Source: Jaminaea rosea
Taxonomy: Eukaryota > Basidiomycota > Exobasidiomycetes > Microstromatales
Direction of reading: 5' to 3'
NCBI RefSeq assembly: GCF_003144245.1
Contig: NW_020289983.1
Location: 310,001-374,000 of the forward strand
Length of the DNA stretch: 64,000 nucleotides
In this document: in pieces, positions 588 to 45,352 of the stretch
How positions within the stretch are numbered: the first letter of the stretch is position 1
Layout of the letters: each line of letters begins with the position of its first letter
Notes under the pieces: model-generated
The model's input: the letters and a program-made list of their open reading frames with translations, nothing else
Told to the model about the DNA's origin: nothing
Databases searched by the model: none
Translations under genes and position numbers: made by a program

Positions 588-3500
588 ATGCTCGACCCGC
601 CTGCGCCTATTGACCAGGCAAACACGGGCGCAGATGTTTCTTCCCTCGCAGATCCGCCGCCCAATGTCAAGCTGCCAGACTCAGAGACGACGGAAGCTCG
701 CCCAGCTCCTACGCCTCGACCCTCGGACGATCTTTCCATCCTCGCTACACTCAACAGAGCTGCAGCTCGCCCAGCATCAAAGTCGCCACTATGGTCTCGA
801 AAGGCAGGAGAGGCCAACGTCGTTCGATCTCGTCAAGGTAGCGTCTTGACTCGAGGTCTCGTCCTCAAGACAGACCATTTCGAGGGCACGCGCGTTCGCC
901 CCACGAAGCTCGATCTGTCTTTGCAAGGTGCTCCGAATTTCCGCAAAGCCGATGCACCGCTTGAAGTCTATGGTACCGCTCAGCCCACTATCACGGGTCT
1001 GCGCACAATATTAGCCGTTTTGGGCGCAGCACCCCCTCCAGCAGCAGCTGCAAATAAGAGGCCATGGCAGAGGACGCCATCCGGCATGACGCTCAAATCA
1101 CCGCCAGTCTCGCGTCAGGCGTCGCATCAGCTCAATAAACAGGCCGCATCGCCCATCGAGTCTCCTGATATGCGTCCCATTACTCAGCAGGCCAAGAAGA
1201 AGACCACAGTCTGGGTCTGTACCCGTGAAGAGCCAATGTGAGTGGGCGCACATGCGAAGCTACCTTTCCATCCTGCATCTGACTCAACTTTCTTCTCCGT
1301 CCCTCGCTCGTAGCATCTACATTGGCGCTCGACCCTTTGTACTCCGCGAGCAGACGAGCCCAATTAACACCTTCTCCCTCTCGTCTCGTGCCGACAACTT
1401 GGAGGCCATCGAGGGCAGGCTCAAGGACGACATCCTGCGCGAGGCTGCGCGCTTCGGCGGCCTGATCATGGTGCATGAGGAAGAAGGAAAAGGTGACGAG
1501 CCCAAGCTCAAGCCGACTTGGATCGCTGTAGACACAGAGACCGTCAAGACGGTTCGAGATGTCTTCGAGGATCTACGCAGTCAAGGATGGGCGTGCGACT
1601 ACCATCGCGTACCAATCGCGCCTGACCAACCCATAGAGAACAACTACCTTGATGCATACACGCGCATTCTTCAGTCCCTCGACCCTGAGACGTCGGCAGT
1701 CGTTGCCAACTGCGGTGCGGGAGTCACGCGAACCACCTTCGCTATGGTAGCGGCACAGATCGTCAGGCGAAGACAGTGGATCCTGCGTGGCCATCCTGAT
1801 CCTTTCAACTTGGCCGACGGGACGATGAGTCCTAGCAATCCAAACTCATCCGGTGCGGCCAACAGTCCTAGCCTGGCAGCCACCGCTGTCACTTCGCCGG
1901 CTCTAGAAGCACAAAGAAGAAGTACTGGCATCAAGGGCAGCGCCGACTCGTCGATGGCAAAGAGCCTGCGAGCCGTTTGGGAGAAGCAGGCTCAGGCTCA
2001 AGCATTACTGAGACTGGTCCAGCTTCTGGGTACGGCAGGCTCTAGCTCTCCAGTCGAGCTCATGCTGGCCAACCCAGACCTCCTTGAGGCGCTACGCCGA
2101 GCATTGACCGGAGACTTTAGCGTCATCCGTGCTCTATGCGGCATTCTCGACGCTGGAATTGATGACAAGGTTGTAGTGGATGTGGCCATCGATTCAGCCG
2201 CGCACCTGACGAACCTGCGAGAAGCTGTTCTTCTCGAGCGAGCCAGCTATGCCCTGGTCAGCTCAGGTTCCTCCTCAGATTCAGCTGGTCAGCATCACCA
2301 ACATCACGGGCACGACGGCGGGGTGCGCCGCAGTGAGAAGGCGGCCATGCATCTGGACAAGGCTGTTCGTGCTCTTGAGAAGTACTTCTTCCTCCTCGCA
2401 TTCTCCTCGTACGTCAATACCATCGATGGAACGGCCGCCACGCCGCAAGACTCCTTCGCCAGCTGGCTGACCCGTCGCTCCGAAATCTGGAACACCATTC
2501 AGCGGATCCGCTCAAAGGGCAAGCAGCTCTACCTCTTTGATCCTGTGGCTGACCTGAGCCAGCTGCGTCGGGGTGGTGGGAAGGGAGCGCATCAGGCCGG
2601 CGGTATGGCGCACCTACGCATGGCTACAGAGGATTCGGCCGGCAACAGCAGCGAGGAGCAGCGTGCAGCAGCAGGTGACGAATTTGCAGATCACCATGTC
2701 CGCAATTTGCGCTCAGGTATCGTGCTTCGACCTGGTACCTTGCTGAAGGAGGACCTCTGGCAAGCGCAACGTGACCGCCCGTCGGACGCTGCGGTCTTTG
2801 ACGTTCGTGGAGCCATCAACTTCAGGCGGATCGCAGGGACAGCCATCTTTGCTACTGGGCAGCCGACGGTCGATGGGATTCGCAATGCGCTCAAGAGTAT
2901 TGGCGACCAGTTGAAGGGACGCGCAAGGATATCCTGCTACTGGCTGAATTTGCGCGAAGAGCCGCTCATCTACGTTGCCGGCCGGCCCATGGTGCTGCGT
3001 GACTCGACGCTCTCCCTGCGCAACATCAAAGCATATGGTGGCATTTCTTGGGCGCGTCTGCAGCTTCTTGAAGACCGTCTCAAGGCCGACGTCATTCATG
3101 AGCTGCAGCAGAACGACGGACGTCTCCTCCTTCACTCCGAGGACGCCAACGGCGAGATCTACCCGCAATGGCAGGAGGTTTCAGCCGATGACGTTGAGAC
3201 GTTGCAGGACGTGATGGGCAAGGTGTCGACCGAGGTCAAGCGCGACGGGTCTGCCATCTGCGGTGTTGATCAGCTCGAGTTCAGGCGTATTCCTTTCACG
3301 GCGGAGAAGCCGCCTGACTACGAAGACCTCACTGCGCTCCTGCAGCTCGTACTGCGTTGTCGCGATTCGGCGATCGTGAACAATTGTCAGCTTGGACGGG
3401 GCCGAAGTACGTTGGCTTCAGTCATCGTGCTGCTCATCGCTCAATGGCTCCGCGAGCATGGGAATGCAGGCGAGGAGCTCTTGCTGCTTGCCAACGACGA

Positions 3501-5481
3501 TGCGAAGCCCTCTTCTCCCGCCGCGGAGCACCGCCCTCCACCACTCTCCTACCATCTCATCAACAGTCTGCTCCGCGTCATCCCGCACGGCCTCGAAGTG
3601 AAACGCGCAGTCGACGAGGCCATCGACCAAGGGTCCGCCGTGACCAACCTCCGCGACTCGATCGAGGAGTTCCGCCTCGCAGCCGAGGAGATGGACGGTG
3701 GAGACGACAATCCGCAGCGCAAAGCCAAGATCCATGCAGGCTGCCAAGCCTTGCGTCGATACTTTGTGCTCATCCTCTTCCAGTCGTACCTCAGTCAGAC
3801 CAAACCCGACGTCATCGTGGGGGATATGCCCACCTTCCAGGACTTTGTGCATCGTCAACCTGTGCTGCAGACGATTAGCAAGGAGTTTGAGAATGTCAGC
3901 CTGGCACTGATCACGCCGCTGCAGCAGAATGCGCAGGGTAGCAAGGGAGGTATTGAGGCGGCGGATGGGATGGCTTTGGCGTCCGAGGTGGACGACGTGG
4001 TTGCGCATCGTGATGGCGCCATCCTCACTGCGTATACTATGCTCAAGAGCGACTTCTTTTCGGGCATCGCCAAGGTGCACCTTTCCCAGATCGAGGGGAT
4101 TCCCAACTTGAGGCAGGTGCCCTTGCTGGTCGGCCCGCCAGATGCTGAGCCGTCCACACCAGGGAAGCTGTCAATGCAGGGATCATCGACGTGGGGCAGT
4201 GGGATGCCGACGCTTGACGGACTGAGGGCAGGACTGGAAAAGATGAAGGCCGGGCCCAAGGGCGACACAACTGTCGTATGGACCTCGTTGCGAGAAGAGC
4301 CCGTCGTCTACGTGCGCGGACGTCCGCATGTGCTGCGCCTCGCCGACCAGCCCCTCACCAACCTCGAAGCTACTGGTATCACCACAGAAACGGTCGAGCG
4401 TCAAGAGATTGCCCTGAAGCGCGACGTGATCGAGGAAGCCGCTCGCCGCGACGGCCGCATCTTGCTGCATGACGAAGTGGAAGTCGAGCCTGGCAAATTC
4501 GACATCATCCCCGTCTGGGAGAGCCTACGCAACCCGAACACGGACGTCCTCACCCCCGCCGAGGCGTACGCGATGGTGCAGGCTGAGGGTTACCGGGTGG
4601 ACTACGGGCGAGTGGCGGTCACAGATGAGCAGGCACCCTTGCCCGGGGTGTTCAAGGCTATTGAAGGGAGAGTGTTGACCGCGCTCAGGCAGGGAGCGGC
4701 CACTGCGTTCAATTGTCAGATGGGAAGGGGCAGAACAACGACCGGTATGGTGATCGCTGCCTTGGTCAGCACGGTGCACCATCATCGTGACGAGATCTTG
4801 GCCGCTGGCCCAGGCGGTGCAGTCGATCTGACTGCCAGCGGTGTGCTCAGCGGGGACGACAGCGTCATTCTTGACGGCGGCGGAGGCGAGAGCACCACAG
4901 GCAGCGTTGCCGGTGATAGGATGACGGGAGCCAAGGATTTCTTGGACAACCGCGAGGAAGAGCTTCTCCTCAACGGCGAGTACCGCATCATCCTTCGTCT
5001 CGTCGGCGTCCTTTCCCAAGGCAAGCTCGCCAAGCTCCTCGTAGACGAAGCCGTCGACCGCATGGATCAAGTACAGAACCTGCGTGTCGCCTGTTACGAT
5101 GCCCGCCTCCGAGCAGAGAATGCTCCCGTCGGCTCAGCGAAGCGTCGTCACTTGTCGACCGTCTTCAACAACTACCTCGCTCGCTACGCCTACCTCATCG
5201 CCTTTGCTAATCATCTGCTCATTGACGAGGAGGATGGAGCTGGGGTGGACGTGCATTTCCAGCAGGTCAAAGAGCTGCTCAAGGCTGATGAGGCGAAGAG
5301 TCGCAGGAGGACGACGAGCACGGGGACGACGAACAGCACGAATAGCGGCAGTGGCGTGCAAGGCATGACGCCCGCGAATGCGAGCAAGGGAGGGGCAGCT
5401 CCATCGCCTTCGCCTAGGCCGTCGACGGCGCCCACGACTGGTAGCGCGGGCCCCAATGGGAAGGGCGGCCCGGGCAAGTGA
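588..5481 (+). CDS. Paladin-like protein with three CX5R phosphatase-like repeats
   Basis: Exons 588-1237 and 1314-5481 give 1605 residues. The start is the ATG at 588. The 76-base intron (GTGAGT...TAG) restores the family motif EEPIIYIGARPFVLR. The protein has three repeats of the paladin / inositol-hexakisphosphatase-like fold. Each repeat carries the REEP...GRPxVLR signature and a CX5R loop: CGAGVTR at about residue 350, CQLGRGR at about 908 and CQMGRGR at about 1351. Cys and Arg are present in all three, so the loops keep the catalytic pattern, although paladins are often regarded as inactive or as phosphoinositide/inositol phosphatases. The first loop departs from the GRGR form of the other two. 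The C-terminal 70 residues are Ser/Thr/Gly/Pro-rich and probably disordered. No signal peptide or membrane segment is seen, so it is probably cytosolic. Confidence 0.88.
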
Positions 5482-15117: not shown

Positions 15118-16245
15118 ATGACTCCTCCTTCTGCCTCGTTCACTTCGGTGCCGGCTCCTTCGAGCCTGGACATGCCTGTCCCCACTAAGAGCCTCAATGC
15201 CAACGGCGCTGCCCCTCAGCAGAACGCCGCCACTGCCGCTCTGGCTAGCTACAAGCCCCACCTCCCCATTCAGGCTGGCAAGGAGCCTGTCGAGGACTAC
15301 AATGGCAACTACCGCTTCGCCGAGATCCACGAGAGCTACGTCAGCAGGGCTATGACAGCTCGGTGAGCAGCCAACGACTGATGTGACTCTCATGCACGCA
15401 CACCACCCTCTGACTCGCCACCCTCCTCTCAACGCCCTCTGCACAGCTACTTCAACGACATGATGCGCACCGCCACCTCGGACGTCATCGTCGTCGGCGC
15501 CGGCAGCGCTGGCCTGACCTGCGCCTATCGCCTCGCGAAGTCTCGCCCCGACCTCTTCGTCACCGTCGTCGAGGCAGGCGTGGCTCCCGGTGGTGGCGCC
15601 TGGCTGGGCGGCCAGCTCTTCAGCGCCATGGTTGTGCGCAAGCCCGCCAACGGCTTCTTGGACGAGATCGGCGTGCCCTACGATGACGAGGGCACCTACG
15701 TCGTCATCAAGCACGCTGCCCTCTTCACCTCAACGCTCCTCAGCAAGCTCATTGCACTCCCCAATGTAAAGCTGTACAACGCTACTGCTGCTGAGGACTT
15801 GATTGTCAAGAAGGATCCGCAGGGCGTCTCTCGCGTTTGCGGTATCGTGTCCAACTGGACGCAGGTCACCCTCGCTCACGGTCTGCAGAGCTGCATGGAT
15901 CCTCAGACCATCAGCGCCCCCGTTGTGGTCAGCGCTACTGGCCACGATGGACCCTTCGGCGCCTCGAGCGTCAAGCGTCTGGCCAACGCTGGCCTCCTCC
16001 AGATGGGTGAGATGGCTCCCCTCGACCAGGGTCGTAGCGAGGACCTCATCGTGAACGGCACCAGCCAGATCTTCCCTGGCATCATCTGCTGCGGAATGGA
16101 GATCAGCGAGGCTAAGAGCGTGCCCCGTATGGGACCTACCTTTGGTGGTATGTTCGCCAGTGGGCTCCGCGCTGCTAAGCTTGCGGAGGAGCTGCACGAC
16201 CGTTTGGAGATCAGGGACAACACCGTTGTTGGAGAGCGAGCCTGA
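15118..16245 (+). CDS. THI4: Thiamine thiazole synthase (THI4)
   Basis: Exons 15118-15362 and 15447-16245 give 347 residues, the usual length. The 84-base intron (GTGAGC...ACAG) joins SRAMTAR to YFNDMM. The protein makes the thiazole half of thiamine from NAD and glycine, using sulfur taken from its own cysteine. Visible signatures are the dinucleotide-binding VVGAGSAGL, the [17 protein letters not shown] loop, SCMDP with the sulfur-donor Cys at residue 231 (the counterpart of yeast Cys205), and the C-terminal [19 protein letters not shown]. The donor Cys is intact, so this is the single-turnover type. The N-terminal 45 residues are Ser/Pro/Ala-rich and not conserved. A strong TATA box and a 1.2-kb upstream region fit thiamine-regulated, high expression. 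Confidence 0.97.
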
Positions 16246-18609: not shown

Positions 18610-20249
<1,640 letters not shown>

Positions 20250-38822: not shown

Positions 38823-40733
38823 TCAAGTGTGACCGTTGATGGAGTCAGACTTCTTGAGCCTGTTCTCATTGAATTCTTCCTTCTCAATCGGCTTGCCCTC
38901 CTCGGACCACTCGACGACGTTCTGCTTATTGTTGAGCTTGTAGTCGTTGATCAGCGGGATCAAGACGATGGGAACAGCGCTGAGGGCAATACCGACGGTG
39001 AGGACGCGGTGCATGTAGAAGGACCAAGCCTCAATCATGGCGTCGCGCTCGGGCGTGCCGAGAGGGTAGGTCATCGTGGCCGTGAAAGGCGAGAGGACGA
39101 TGGCGCTAGCGGCGGTGGGGTTGTTGGGCAGGAGCTGCGCAAGGCGTGAGGGAATGGCCGTGGTCTGGATGGCGCCGAGGGTGGCCGTGCCGCATGCTCC
39201 GCCGATTTCGGTGACGAGGAGGACAAGTGCCGTGACGAGGGCCACATCCTGGTGAGGGACGGAGACCTGAGAGGCAACGCTGAGCTCAACACCGAGGATA
39301 CCACCACCGAGACCCTGGATGACCTGAGGGATGACAAGCTGTGCCGTAGTGGCCCCGGCACCGCGGTAGGCCAGCATGAGTCCGATACCGAGCATACGGA
39401 TGAGCGAGCCGGCAAAGAAGGTCCACTTGTATCGCCTGATGAAGATGTTGAGCGCGCCGGCTGCGATACCGAAGACGGTGAGGCAGAGGGACTGGGCGTT
39501 GCTGAAGTAGATGGCATCCTTGTTGCTCCACCCACGGAGGATGACGACAAAGTAGTATGCCGATGACCACGAGAGGTAGAAGGAGTAGAAGTCGAAGAAG
39601 CCCACGATAGCCGGAATGAGGACGTTGCGGTTGGTGATAAAGCGCTTGCGGATGATGGGCTCGGGAGCGATGAATGCCTCGAAGAGGCCGCAGAGGATCA
39701 AGCAGACGCCACCGACGACGAACATGGCGATGATGTAGCCGGTCTGCCAGCCGTTGGGAGCCGTGGTGTGGAGAGTGAGGGGCAGGAGGATGAGGAGCCA
39801 GCCGGCGCAGAGGAGGAAGAGTCCGCCAGCGTCGACGTCGTTGCAGAAGGCGATGAAGCCCTTGCCGAAGCCCATCTTGACGTAGGGGTGAGGCTCGACG
39901 ATGCCCTTCTTCTTTGCCTCAGTCTGGGCCAGGCCGAGAGCCAGGATGATGGGGGCAATGGCTACGGGAAGGACGATGCAGAACATACCGTAGCCCCATC
40001 TCCAGTTTGCGGCGGTTCCCAGATGACCGACGATGAGAGGAGAGCATGCGAAGTTGATGACGTAGGGGAGCGAGAGGAGACCGGTAGCCAGACCACGGTA
40101 GCGCGTGTTGATGGCGTCGGCGACGACGATCTGTTGCATGATCTGAGTGCCCGTGTTGCCGATGGCGTAGAAGACTTGACCGGCGCAGATGGCGGAGAAG
40201 GAAGGCGAGGCGGCGAGGATCTACGATTGTGCGGCAGGAGGTGTTAGTATTGCTGATACCGTGACGCGTCGCCGGCGGGCGCGTGCGCTACTCACAATGA
40301 GACCAAGGACATAGAAGAAGAGGCTGACAGCGTAACCCTGAGCGCGACCAAAGACGTCGGAGAGCTTCGCAATGGGGAGCTTGCCGATGGCGATGATGAC
40401 TTGCTGGATGACAGAGGCGGCCGTGTAGAGCGAGTAGTTCTGGGCCTGGGCAGCCTGCTGAAGGTATGCGTACGTGGTGCCATTGTCGAGCGAGTAGACG
40501 TACGAGGTCAAGCCGATACCGATGTAGGCCACCCAGAGCTGCCAACCGGACAGGGCCTTGACTGCCTCTGCCTTGAGGACGCCAGGAGGCTTGTCGTCGG
40601 CATTGGGGATGTAGAAGTCGGACTTGACGCTGTTAGAGCCAGAGCCGTTCTCATAAGGAGGAGGGGCAATCTTTGTGGACTGGTGCTCGAGGTGCTCGCC
40701 CTTGGCGCCGGTCGCGGTGGCAGCGGTCGACAT
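38823..40733 (-). CDS. Siderophore-iron transporter of the MFS (SIT/ARN type)
   Basis: Exons (minus) 40733-40296 and 40220-38823 give 611 residues; the intron is 75 bases. About 14 hydrophobic segments follow an 85-residue hydrophilic N-terminus, the usual layout of the SIT family. Family-like blocks are IGIGLTSYVYSLDNGTTYAYLQ in helix 1, GKLPIAKLSDVFGRAQGY, YAIGNTGTQIMQQIVVAD, and SVPHQDVALVTALVLLVTEIGGACGTA. Such proteins take up ferric hydroxamate siderophores by proton symport at the plasma membrane. Tandem GATAA motifs lie 63 bases upstream of the ATG and two ATCAGATA octamers lie farther out, consistent with control by a GATA iron repressor. The substrate cannot be told from sequence alone. 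Confidence 0.9.
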
Positions 40734-40795
40734 CTTGGGAGATGGCGTTTGGTGAAGAAGAAGAAGAAGATGGAGGAGAGATGGGCGCGATTTCG

Positions 40796-40805
40796 GATAA
40801 GATAA
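40796..40805 (+). promoter_or_regulatory. Tandem GATAAGATAA upstream of the siderophore transporter
   Basis: Two overlapping GATAA cores lie 63 bases before the minus-strand ATG at 40733. Fungal iron regulators (Urbs1 of Ustilago, SRE, Fep1) bind paired GATA sites in siderophore genes. The sequence is direct; the regulator is inferred. Confidence 0.45.
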
Positions 40806-41223
40806 GGGAGGAGTCGTCTCTGGTTATGTAGGCGTAGGCTCAGATGAGCCAGTCGTTGGCTAGTGGAAATTTTGAGGCAGCTAGGGTGGAATTCAATGGC
40901 CAGGCCTCCAGTTGCTCTGCGATGCTGCCGAACGAGGTGACTGCGATGTGCTGCGCTGCGATGCAATGTCGATGGGTGGTGGAGCTGGATCGGCGCCGCC
41001 ACACTCTCTACTTCTCGGTCGTGTGCGTGGCTGGCTGGTGGCTGGACAGTGGGTCTGGACTGACTGGGAAGGCACGCAACGGCAGTGAAATGCGCTGAAC
41101 TTTGCTGGCAAGGATGTGATGCAACGATGCGACGAACGGACTGGGTGGGAAAGACGGGCAGATCGGCCCTAGCAGCGGCTGCTCTTCGGCCCTCTCTCGC
41201 TGTCGCTTTTTCTCGCGCGCAAA

Positions 41224-41760: not shown

Positions 41761-42595
41761 GCGACGGCGGCCGGCCTCGCATTACAGCGGCAATGCTGCC
41801 CGCGGAGCGCCACATTATCGTAGACCGGGTCAACCCGCGTCGGCACGTCCGGTCATTCTCATCGTACGACAGCGCGCCAAGAGCGACGCCACATTTGACC
41901 ATATGTGTGCTGCCTTGACGTGATTGCTTGTCCAGACGATCCAAAATTGTGATCAATTTCTTGAAAAGTGACGAGAACGCCGGGTGGAGCCAGGAAAAGA
42001 TCAGCGGTCCGACTCAGCTTCAGCGAGGAAGCAGGTCAAGCGAGTCGCCATGGCTCCAGTCGCATCGCATGCCTATTGCAGTGGTACCTAGCGCCTCGTC
42101 GCAGCGCTTGCTACGTCTCGTCGCCATCCTTGTGGCACTGCAGCCTCTCCAAGCACGACGTCGCTCGACTGTTCGCTAGAAGGGCGGCGATCTTGAGCGC
42201 AGCCTTCGGACGCTCTGCTCGTCAGCGAAGTCCAACAGCAGATCGGGACTGAAGTCACGTTCGAGGCTCTTGATCGACATAGCGTCTACGCGTCACCCGA
42301 AAGGTGAGGAAGCGCCTGTACGACGCTGAGCGCGACACATTGCTTCGATAGACGTCTGACGTTTAAAAGCGAGCCGAGAGCAACTCGATGGCCCCCTTGA
42401 AAGCATCCTACGGCTTGTGCAGTGCTCACAACGAGAAGCGGCAAGTCGTCGAGGGGAAGAGTTTGCGTCACGGTGCCGTCTTTGAGTCCACCGTCCAGCT
42501 TTTGCACATGCGATTGGGTGGCTGCAGATGAGAAGCAAGACATGTCATTTACAAGCAAAGCATCCGTGGAGTGGCACGCACTACGTTGCGCCTTA

Positions 42596-43173
42596 TCAGT
42601 TTGCATACGGCGGTGGAGCGGCCATCTGTGGGCCATACGATCCATTCTCCGGCGTCTCTGCCTGTGACGTCGAGACCGCGGCATATGTATGAGTGGCAAG
42701 AGATTCTGTGTCCCCGCTGTGTCTGGCGTTGTTGACCATCTCGACCTCGCCGGTCGCCAAGGGAGCGGTGGCTTCTTCCTGAGGTCGAGGACGAGTCCTT
42801 CTGCACCAAGAGTGACAGGACTGAACGACGACGATCGGTCTGGTAACAATCCACCTCACAATCTTGAAAAGGGCCACCCACGGAGAAACAACACTCCATA
42901 CAACCGTCTCCATCCAGGATGGGAAGCAACACGGATCGGCGTAATCGTTCTGTGTCCGTCTATTGAGATGCTCGATCCATGCGATCAGAGGGAAACCAAC
43001 AACCCAGAGCGTGTACATTGCCGCATAGGGCTGTAGCACAAGACAAAGTAATCATTGTCAGCGCCCATTCAATTCGATTGCTCTCGAGCATGCGGGAACG
43101 TCCTCACCATAGTCATGTACAGGATGAAACGGGTATCGTCATCGATTTTTCGAGGCTCCAACGCTGGCGCCAT
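42596..43173 (-). CDS. Small two-helix membrane protein with C-terminal PPPY, copy A
   Basis: Exons (minus) 43173-43108 (22 codons) and 43030-42596 give 166 residues. The 77-base intron is phase 0. The product starts MAPALEPRK. A long hydrophobic stretch spans the exon junction (about residues 15-42), then HLNRRTQNDYADPCC, a second hydrophobic segment (about 59-88), a CRRTRPRP motif and a polar tail ending PPPYAN. Copy B, 1.2 kb away on the same strand, has the same plan, intron position and first-exon length. PPPY fits the PPxY ligand of WW domains, as used by Rsp5/Nedd4 ubiquitin ligases. I do not recognise the family. It is Cys-rich near the membrane but lacks the PLAC8 pattern. Confidence 0.72.
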
Positions 43174-43241
43174 GATGGTGCGACAGGACAGGATGAGATG
43201 ATATGGGAAATGACCAGGAAGGAAGATGAAGTCGCCAGGTT

Positions 43242-43293
43242 TTCAGGCTGCGTTGGTGAGGTGTCAGGTGTTCAGGCTGCGTTGGTGAGGTGT
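43242..43293. repeat. Tandem repeat, 23-base unit at 29-base spacing
   Basis: TTCAGGCTGCGTTGGTGAGG followed by TGT occurs at 43242-43264 and again, identical, at 43271-43293. The repeat starts about 70 bases upstream of the copy A start codon, so it may lie in its promoter or leader. Confidence 0.85.
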
Positions 43294-43472
43294 ATTTTTT
43301 ATTCTCACGGGACCGCGGTAGCCAGCTCTGAAGCGTACCCTTTGTACGCTTTTGAACTTGGACCACTGCTTTTGTCGATCGATCTCATAGACTAGGAAAT
43401 AGGAGCCGGCTCACTTTCTGGACTGTGATTGAAGGGCGGCACTCTGCTATCTAGCCCTGCCCGCGACGCAAG

Positions 43473-43487
43473 CGATCGGGCATTGAT
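43473..43487. promoter_or_regulatory. Shared 15-mer CGATCGGGCATTGAT upstream of copy A
   Basis: The identical 15-mer also occurs at 44752-44766, upstream of copy B. It sits 300 bases before the ATG of copy A and 372 before that of copy B, and the next bases are also similar. It is either a retained promoter element or a remnant of the duplication. Confidence 0.55.
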
Positions 43488-43832
43488 TCCACGCTACTGC
43501 CATTGGCACTACCTAGACGAGCACTAGGCCGGGCGTCTCCGTTCTGGAAAGAAGCACAGCCGCTGATCAGCACAAGACGAGGGCGCAATGATACCACGTT
43601 TCCATGATAGTTACGCTATCGCCTCCTGCGTGAGATTCGCTCGCACGCGACGAGGGCAATGACAGAAGAGCGGTCCAAAAAAGCCCGATGCCGTGGCGAT
43701 GAGGCATCACGATTGCTCATGAGTATGGCCGAGACGCTGCGACAGACAGCTGGATCTTCATACAATGTCATTGAAGGTATTTTTCGATTGCAAAGGAACA
43801 TTGCACTTGTCCGACTACTACAATCACCTTCG

Positions 43833-44380
43833 TCAGCGTGCGTACGGGGGAGGAACTTCCATCAGCGGCGGCTTTGGCTCGTCGCTTGCCGTCTCTGAAC
43901 GTCTGCTTTCGGCCGCGACAGCTTCGATGTCGTCGACCCGCGTAACGTTGGTGATAACTTCGGGCTCTTCGGTTGCAGGTGGGGCCGCAGTGTTGTGTGC
44001 AGGATGAGCGCGAGTCCTTCTACACCAGTAGAAGCAGGAGGGAGGGTCATCCCAGCAGCATTTCAAGATCCAGAAAGGAAGCAAGCAGGGGCCAAACAAG
44101 ACGGTGAAGAAGGTCCTGACCCACTTCTCAAATGGCATACAGCAGGGGTCGACGTAGCCGTTTGCTGATCTCCTGTTGAGATGGCTGAACCAACGGATCA
44201 ATGGTATGCCTAAAACGGCCAGCACGTAAAGTATCAAGAAGGGCTATTCGAAAGAGCTTGACATATCGTCAGCAAAGTGAAGGAGCGTGTGCTGGGTAGG
44301 TCAGTTGGACTCACTGCGGAGTAGATGAGAGCAAATCTGGTTTCCCAACTCATCTCGCGCGGTGCGAGAGCTGGGGCCAT
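43833..44380 (-). CDS. Small two-helix membrane protein with C-terminal PPPY, copy B
   Basis: Exons (minus) 44380-44315 (22 codons) and 44243-43833 give 158 residues. The 71-base intron is phase 0, at the same place as in copy A. It starts MAPALAPRE. Hydrophobic segments lie at about residues 15-42 and 58-80. HLNRRSANGYVDPCC lies between them, CRRTRAHP follows the second, and the tail ends PPPYAR. The tail between CRRTR and PPPY is diverged from copy A except for scattered Glu/Val/Thr positions, which indicates an old duplication or relaxed constraint there. Extra Cys residues occur in and after helix 2. Function is unknown. A membrane adaptor that recruits a WW-domain ubiquitin ligase is one inference from the PPxY motif. 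Confidence 0.72.
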
Positions 44381-45352
44381 AATGATACCAGTAGAGTAGA
44401 GTGACGATGAGGCGAGTTCCAGGCGATTGCGGTACAGTTGATCAAGGCGGCGGCGACCGTTGGCGCAAGTGACGTTGTGTTGCCCCTCAATCAAGGTGAG
44501 GCAGTAGGAAGGGTGTTTGGAATCTGGAGGAGACGTCTGCACGTTCGAACTTCAACCCCCACTCCATCTTATAGAAACGCAGCGTCGTCCATATCTCCTC
44601 CTAGCTGTGCTAACGCGATGCCCGGCTGAACACCTCTGACTAGCAATATCACTCGCTATCGCAGAAAGACATCTGTGTCTTTCTGTGTGGTCTCGCGATT
44701 GAGATGCGCCCAGCCGGCAGCGCGTGGCCTTCCCGTGCGTGATGGAGGCGCCGATCGGGCATTGATCCCCGCGCTAATTGACGCTAGTCCAGCCAGCTGG
44801 GATCCAAGCGCTCCAATTTGGCACAGCCGGAGACTACCTCCAAGGGGGGGTCATTCGGAACACTATGCTGGTGAGAAAGGGTATCTTCAGTGTGGGGAAG
44901 TACCGTCCCGTGTCTTCCCGATCATGGCAATCAGCACCACACTGCGGAAGACACGGCTGAGGAGAGTCCATCTCCTCAGATCGCGCCATTCCTCGCCCGA
45001 CGTCATCGCAACGAGCTTTCCCATGCTACTCCAAGGCTAGAACAGCCGGCTGGTCACGACGACAGAGAGCCCAGATCCTCAGTCTGGCCATGGCGCGGCG
45101 TTATCATCCTCGACGTCACCAGATCGGGCTGTGCCAAGAGTCGCTGCATGAGCGTCTTAAGGGCCGAGGCATACTGCGAATCAATTCCATTGCCGGCAAA
45201 TATAGCGTAGCGTAGCGCAGACGAAGTTGAGGGTGGGGCGCAACACTCCGCCCGGCAAAGGGTCACGAGGACGATGGACTCGAGCTTGCTTGCGAGCCAC
45301 GATATCGCTCGCTCGCTCGCTTCCCCGCTCATGTCCTGCCTTTGTCTTCCCT
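44381..45352. promoter_or_regulatory. 972-base gap between copy B and the V-ATPase a subunit gene
   Basis: This gap holds the copy B promoter, including the shared 15-mer at 44752-44766, and the 3' end of the V-ATPase gene. Short frames on the plus strand near 44.7-45.2 kb lack recognisable sequence. I see no third paralogue: no NRR...DPCC or CRRTR coding pattern appears in any frame provided. Confidence 0.4.
44752..44766. promoter_or_regulatory. Shared 15-mer CGATCGGGCATTGAT upstream of copy B
   Basis: This is identical to 43473-43487. See that entry for spacing. Conservation in sequence that is otherwise diverged suggests either function or recent shared ancestry. Confidence 0.55.

Follow-up and report, generated by a model that had tools for sequence, protein, structure and literature searches.

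Two adjacent genes of one plan

We analyzed a stretch of 64,000 nucleotides of the Jaminaea rosea genome (contig NW_020289983.1, positions 310,001 to 374,000; called the window below, with positions counted from its first letter). The analysis centered on a tandem pair of genes, here named A and B, whose predicted products are small proteins with two hydrophobic segments and a PPPY motif at the C terminus. The genes lie next to each other on the minus strand and have two exons each; gene A (44380-43833) encodes 158 amino acids, and gene B (43173-42596) encodes 166. Their parts are as follows.

44315..44380, minus strand: exon 1 of gene A, 22 codons, MAPALAPREMSWETRFALIYSA; no other ATG precedes its start codon in the stop-to-stop frame
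44244..44314, minus strand: predicted intron of gene A, 71 nucleotides, phase 0, GTGAGT..TAG
43833..44243, minus strand, including the stop codon: exon 2 of gene A, with hydrophobic segment 1, the NRRSANGYVDPCC loop, hydrophobic segment 2, CC..C..CRRTR, an acidic tail with Lys146, and the PPPYAR end
43108..43173, minus strand: exon 1 of gene B, 22 codons, MAPALEPRKIDDDTRFILYMTM; its ATG is the first of its frame, and 11 of the 22 residues are the same as in A
43031..43107, minus strand: predicted intron of gene B, 77 nucleotides, phase 0, GTGAGG..CAG
42596..43030, minus strand: exon 2 of gene B, with hydrophobic segment 1, the NRRTQNDYADPCC loop, a longer hydrophobic segment 2, CHSWCRRTR, a lysine-free tail, and the PPPYAN end

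Both proteins start with MAPAL on a 22-codon exon 1, are interrupted at the same place by the phase-0 intron, and carry NRRxxNxYxDPCC, CRRTR, and PPPYA(R/N). This common plan, from the MAPAL exon to the PPPY end, had been put forward in an earlier sequence-only reading of the DNA, and all of its elements were found where that reading had placed them. A branch-like CTGAC site is located 24 nucleotides (A) and 26 nucleotides (B) upstream of the 3' end of the predicted intron, and the unspliced frames run into a stop after 48 codons (A) and 34 codons (B). The two introns have no common word of 8 bases, and the regions downstream of the genes have no common word longer than 10.

The alignment of the two proteins covers their full length, with identity at 66 of 168 positions and a blastp E value of 1e-36 in a one-subject search. 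Their Smith-Waterman score was 309, whereas 2000 shuffled versions of A averaged 35 and never exceeded 80. The score of exon 1 alone was reached by none of 5000 shuffles. Furthermore, the tail is still similar between A and B when its last six residues are removed; none of 2000 shuffles matched its score. At the DNA level, blastn of positions 42400-44700 against the whole window (word size 7, E 1e-3) returned the self-match only. A repeat search yielded one 39-nucleotide stretch with 74% identity between A and B, covering the codons of the WCRRTR region, together with a short upstream element that is described below. When both proteins were compared to the window by tblastn, no third copy was detected, all other places having E values of at least 0.5.

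Identity between A and B was 0.56, 0.63, and 0.37 at the first, second, and third codon positions (156 codons). Using three methods on the 156 aligned codons, in a computation that gave numerical warnings, we obtained a nonsynonymous divergence (dN) of 0.58-0.65 and a synonymous divergence (dS) of 2.0-2.5. The dN/dS ratio between the copies, which the sequence-only reading had suggested as a check, was ~0.24-0.31 and indicates purifying selection, a value that is rough because dS is near saturation. The same codon is used at 30 of the 66 conserved residues, compared to 26.7 expected at saturation. All of these estimates come from two sequences, A and B, and cannot be used to judge single sites. 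We conclude from the sequence comparisons that A and B are true paralogs, old tandem duplicates with purifying selection acting on the protein. The earlier proposal that A and B are real genes, members of one family that is under selection, is supported by the alignment score of 309 (at most 80 after shuffling) and by the near-saturated dS.

Predicted membrane segments and C-terminal tail

Each protein contains two hydrophobic segments, at about residues 23-41 and 63-84. On the Wimley-White octanol scale, the 19-residue sums are -13.0 and -13.1 for A and -10.5 and -8.1 for B, favoring both segments in both proteins. The Kyte-Doolittle peaks of A are 2.30 and 1.76. Each segment holds a proline that is identical in A and B, within GxPLI in the first segment and as a single P in the second. 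The loop between the segments contains NRRxxNxYxDPCC, and cysteines and CRRTR follow the second segment. From their hydrophobicity, the segments of A and B are probably membrane spanning.

The PPPY motif stands two residues from the C terminus in both proteins. Among the 259 stop-to-stop frames of at least 100 amino acids in the window, which are mostly nongenes, a PPxY no more than three residues from the end was found in two, namely, A and B. Identity between A and B is 34% in the tail and 47% in the part up to CRRTR. The lysines of A are at positions 62, 83, and 146, with Lys146 located seven residues before PPPY.

Relatives and possible function

Neither A nor B gave a family past the cutoff in Pfam or NCBIfam or a PDB chain at a meaningful E value. 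When whole proteins and membrane cores were compared to Pfam at E values up to 10, only sub-threshold Sprouty, TGF_beta, and DUF2650 were listed. Sprouty (E 0.96; core, 0.074), TGF_beta (0.098), and DUF2650 (0.079) are below the Pfam cutoffs and were rejected as chance matches, probably caused by cysteine composition; a Rab-9A listing at E 1.4 was likewise rejected as chance. The Pmp3 profile (PF01679) was absent from the listings at E values up to 10, with the complete proteins as well as with the cores, and these profile searches did not place A and B in the Pmp3/Sna3 family. The Shisa and WBP-1 models were also not listed for whole proteins or cores, giving no membership in the animal Shisa-like STMC6 proteins, from which A and B additionally differ by having two hydrophobic segments and not one. 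The Pmp3, Shisa, and WBP-1 models are part of the Pfam library. Since the filters of HMMER remove most matches with E values above ~0.1, very remote links could escape such searches.

In viral contigs, 17 pattern stretches with the A1 alignment and 8 with exon 2 of B were obtained, none of them confirmed. Prokaryote genome contigs yielded 71 pattern stretches with the A1 alignment and 30 with exon 2 of A, of which none was confirmed, and exon 2 of A gave no match at E 0.1 in plasmids. These three collections are not meant to hold fungi, and their silence on relatives says little. Among the titles and abstract openings returned by searches of the open-license literature, none dealt with a fungal family resembling A and B. 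Since the libraries searched include no fungal genome collection, databases may already contain the family under hypothetical proteins without a name.

The sequence-only reading knew of no described family with this combination of features. With respect to architecture, this was too strong, because Sna3 of yeast has already been published; with respect to sequence, it stands to the extent that no cutoff was passed in Pfam, NCBIfam, or PDB. The novelty of A and B in sequence is therefore partly supported, and since no Pmp3 family match was listed, the two are best called analogues of Sna3.

Like Sna3 (Pmp3/RCI2-like, an Rsp5 adaptor and multivesicular-body cargo), A and B are small and have two probable membrane segments and a C-terminal PPxY, and A also resembles it in having a tail lysine, comparable to the acceptor Lys125 of Sna3. 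To our knowledge, the DPCC loop and CRRTR are absent from Sna3, and unlike Sna3, A and B have no listed Pmp3 Pfam match. Another difference is that PPPY is at the very end of A and B, while Sna3 lacking its last 24 residues keeps its PY motif (PMC2171029). Sna3 has two transmembrane domains, its PPAY in the cytoplasmic C-terminal part binds the WW domains of Rsp5, it is polyubiquitylated on Lys125 and missorted once PPAY is lost, and the earliest work on it dealt with its sorting as a cargo (PMC2171029). In a review, Sna3 acts as an adaptor for Mup1 and is counted among the nonarrestin Rsp5 adaptors with Rcr1/2, Bsd2, Tre1/2, Ear1, Ssh4, Hua1, and Rup1 (PMC9105457).

The Shisa-like STMC6 proteins of animals (WBP1, VOPP1, WBP1L, CYYR1, and TMEM92) resemble A and B as membrane proteins with PPxY and are set apart from them by the lack of a listed Pfam match for A and B. 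Yeast Rcr1 and Rcr2 have a single membrane segment and are likened to A and B by description. They too are a paralogous membrane pair with PY motifs, with Rcr1 at the plasma membrane and Rcr2 at the vacuole (PMC9105457). As for the animal proteins, WWP1 is reported to be recruited to late endosomes by CYYR1, and WBP1L is a reported adaptor of WWP1, WWP2, ITCH, and NEDD4L.

By analogy to these proteins, we favor with moderate confidence the explanation that A and B are anchored in the membrane and partner through their PY motif, as adaptor and/or cargo, with an Rsp5/Nedd4-type ligase. The sequence-only reading had offered membrane ubiquitin-ligase adaptors as one hypothesis, which is reasonable and continues to be the best candidate. 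Both have the feature of this functional class, a PPxY in the tail beside a membrane segment, and PPPY was retained at the extreme C terminus of both, though the tail is only 34% identical. According to this model, both ends of A and B would face the cytosol, the terminal PPPY would dock on a WW domain of the ligase, and the membrane part would bring the ligase to endosomes, the Golgi, the vacuole, or the plasma membrane. Cargo bound by the loop or by the membrane-embedded part would then receive ubiquitin and be delivered to the vacuole, in the manner of Sna3, and in A, the tail residue Lys146 itself may be ubiquitylated too. Topology, WW binding, the ligase, and the sorting role are inferred here.

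Several observations weigh against this explanation. The Kyte-Doolittle peaks of B are only 1.39 and 1.58, below the customary threshold of 1.6, and make membrane spanning weaker in B. Counts of K/R and D/E residues, which depend on the segment limits that we picked, are balanced in the loop (3 and 2 in A; 2 and 3 in B) and at the N terminus (2 and 2 in A; 3 and 4 in B), so that CRRTR is the sole sign of a tail in the cytosol. Structure models, computed from a two-row alignment, had a mean pLDDT (predicted local distance difference test) of 48.1 and 48.6, too low to be used; these low-confidence models set helices over the hydrophobic segments in both proteins. The tail alone is less constrained than the whole protein (NG86: dN, 0.66; dS, 1.38; ratio, ~0.48). 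The lysines of B are at positions 9 and 78 only, which leaves none in the tail that could accept ubiquitin. Finally, certain PPxY proteins act solely as cargo, and one PPxY membrane protein, VOPP1, is reported to be tied to WWOX, a WW-domain oxidoreductase that is not a ubiquitin ligase (PMC6125347, PMC6300487).

That A and B are cargo only is possible, and we consider it rather unlikely. PPPY would then serve their own ubiquitylation and turnover, and the membrane part would do something else, for example, in the response to membrane stress or in organizing lipids (compare the tail-bearing Pmp3/RCI2 proteins). In line with this, early work treated Sna3 as a sorting cargo, polyubiquitylation of Sna3 itself is described, and Lys146 of A lies seven residues before PPPY. 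However, PPPY is kept in B despite the lysine-free tail, and no Pfam Pmp3 match was listed. The absence of lysine from the tail of B suggests that its PPPY does not serve the ubiquitylation of lysines in its own tail, which favors an adaptor role, at least for B.

We regard as distinctly unlikely that PPPY docks a WW protein not of the Rsp5 type, or is a scaffold signal, and that the family works outside ubiquitin biology. Two papers on WWOX name VOPP1 (PMC6125347, PMC6300487), and the 20 neighboring frames scanned with Pfam name no partner. However, Sna3, Rcr1/2, Bsd2, Ear1, Ssh4, CYYR1, WBP1L, and ENTREP are described as partners of Nedd4-type ligases, a sample of PY-bearing membrane proteins that is biased because the literature was sought by ligase terms. 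It is very improbable that A and B are distant Pmp3/Sna members or fungal counterparts of the Shisa-like STMC6 PPxY proteins (WBP1, VOPP1, CYYR1): they have in common the general plan of membrane segment(s), cysteines, and a PPxY tail, but no Pmp3, Shisa, or WBP-1 model was listed at E values up to 10, and CYYR1 is described as having a signal peptide and a single membrane segment. That A and B are chance open frames or pseudogenes is hardly credible, since, despite a GC content at third codon positions (0.65 and 0.61) lower than that of the V-ATPase (0.77) and MFS (0.81) neighbors, they have an exon plan in common, near-saturated synonymous sites with a conserved protein, and unbroken frames in both.

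The choice of membrane proteins that an Rsp5-type ligase targets for degradation is made by membrane adaptors. If A and B are indeed partners of such a ligase, they would represent, in a different lineage, an independent family of two-helix proteins and an added way of aiming it; the Rsp5 adaptors cited above are all from Saccharomyces cerevisiae. A fuller version of the ligase-partner explanation, unlikely as a whole, would make A and B an undescribed fungal two-helix membrane adaptor family without sequence kinship to Sna3, a coregulated tandem pair with divided labor, and the MFS-like neighbor a possible client. In such a division, A could be ubiquitylated beside its own PPPY, and B, with its lysine-free tail, could recruit the ligase without consuming itself. 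With their difference in tail lysines, A and B offer a natural comparison. Should fungal databases already contain the family as hypothetical proteins, the present result would be a functional hypothesis for this family and not a discovery.

Upstream elements and genomic surroundings

A short element occurs upstream of both genes in the same orientation.

44752..44766, minus strand: 15-base-pair element ATCAATGCCCGATCG, 386 nucleotides upstream of the ATG of gene A
43473..43487, minus strand: exact copy of the 15-base-pair element ATCAATGCCCGATCG, 314 nucleotides upstream of the ATG of gene B

With flanks, the pair extends over 18 nucleotides with 94% identity. Elsewhere in the window, ATCAATGCCCGATCG was not found with up to two mismatches, and two further places were found at three mismatches. 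In a first test, a common 15-mer was present in none of 484 random window pairs (longest common word, 14); in a larger test, it was present in 52 of 10000, and with first-order Markov sequences in 5 of 10000. Because the pair came to our attention only post hoc, we treat it as a hint of joint regulation and not as a result; ATCAATGCCCGATCG is a possible candidate regulatory site common to A and B. In addition, two tandem repeats of 29 nucleotides, 97% identical, are present at 43236-43293, about 60 nucleotides upstream of the ATG of gene B.

According to Pfam analysis of the 20 neighboring frames, a V-ATPase a-subunit gene is located upstream and an MFS transporter gene downstream on the same strand as A and B. 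Beyond these are cytidine-deaminase-like and GH31 genes and, on the other side, genes for an RRM protein and Yju2. Judged by these matches, the neighborhood looks like ordinary chromosomal genes. The MFS-like gene (38823-40823, minus strand) has a first frame whose MFS match, at 21.2 bits, is below the Pfam cutoff of 33.4. In this frame, APPPYENG is found at 40664, with PPPY at residues 24-27 counted from the first Met, another possible WW ligand. A role of the MFS-like transporter as a client of A or B is speculative.

Scans of the window for tRNAs and Rfam families gave no hits. A Thi4 fragment (15382-16242) matched the PDB entries 3jsk (311.7 bits) and 1rp0 (301.5 bits) about equally; these are from Neurospora and Arabidopsis, respectively. 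An Rvb1 fragment (19692-20246) had its best matches, at ~200 bits, with RuvB-like 1 PDB entries, among them the human 2c9o, slightly above 4wvy from Chaetomium (190.7 bits). Neither fragment is markedly closer to the Neurospora and Chaetomium entries than to those from plant or human, a hint that the source is only distantly related to these two fungi. The short introns and the gene content fit a fungus, possibly an intron-poor basidiomycete. Lastly, an open frame of 1463 amino acids (1090-5478) contains three PTPlike_phytase stretches and is paladin-like.
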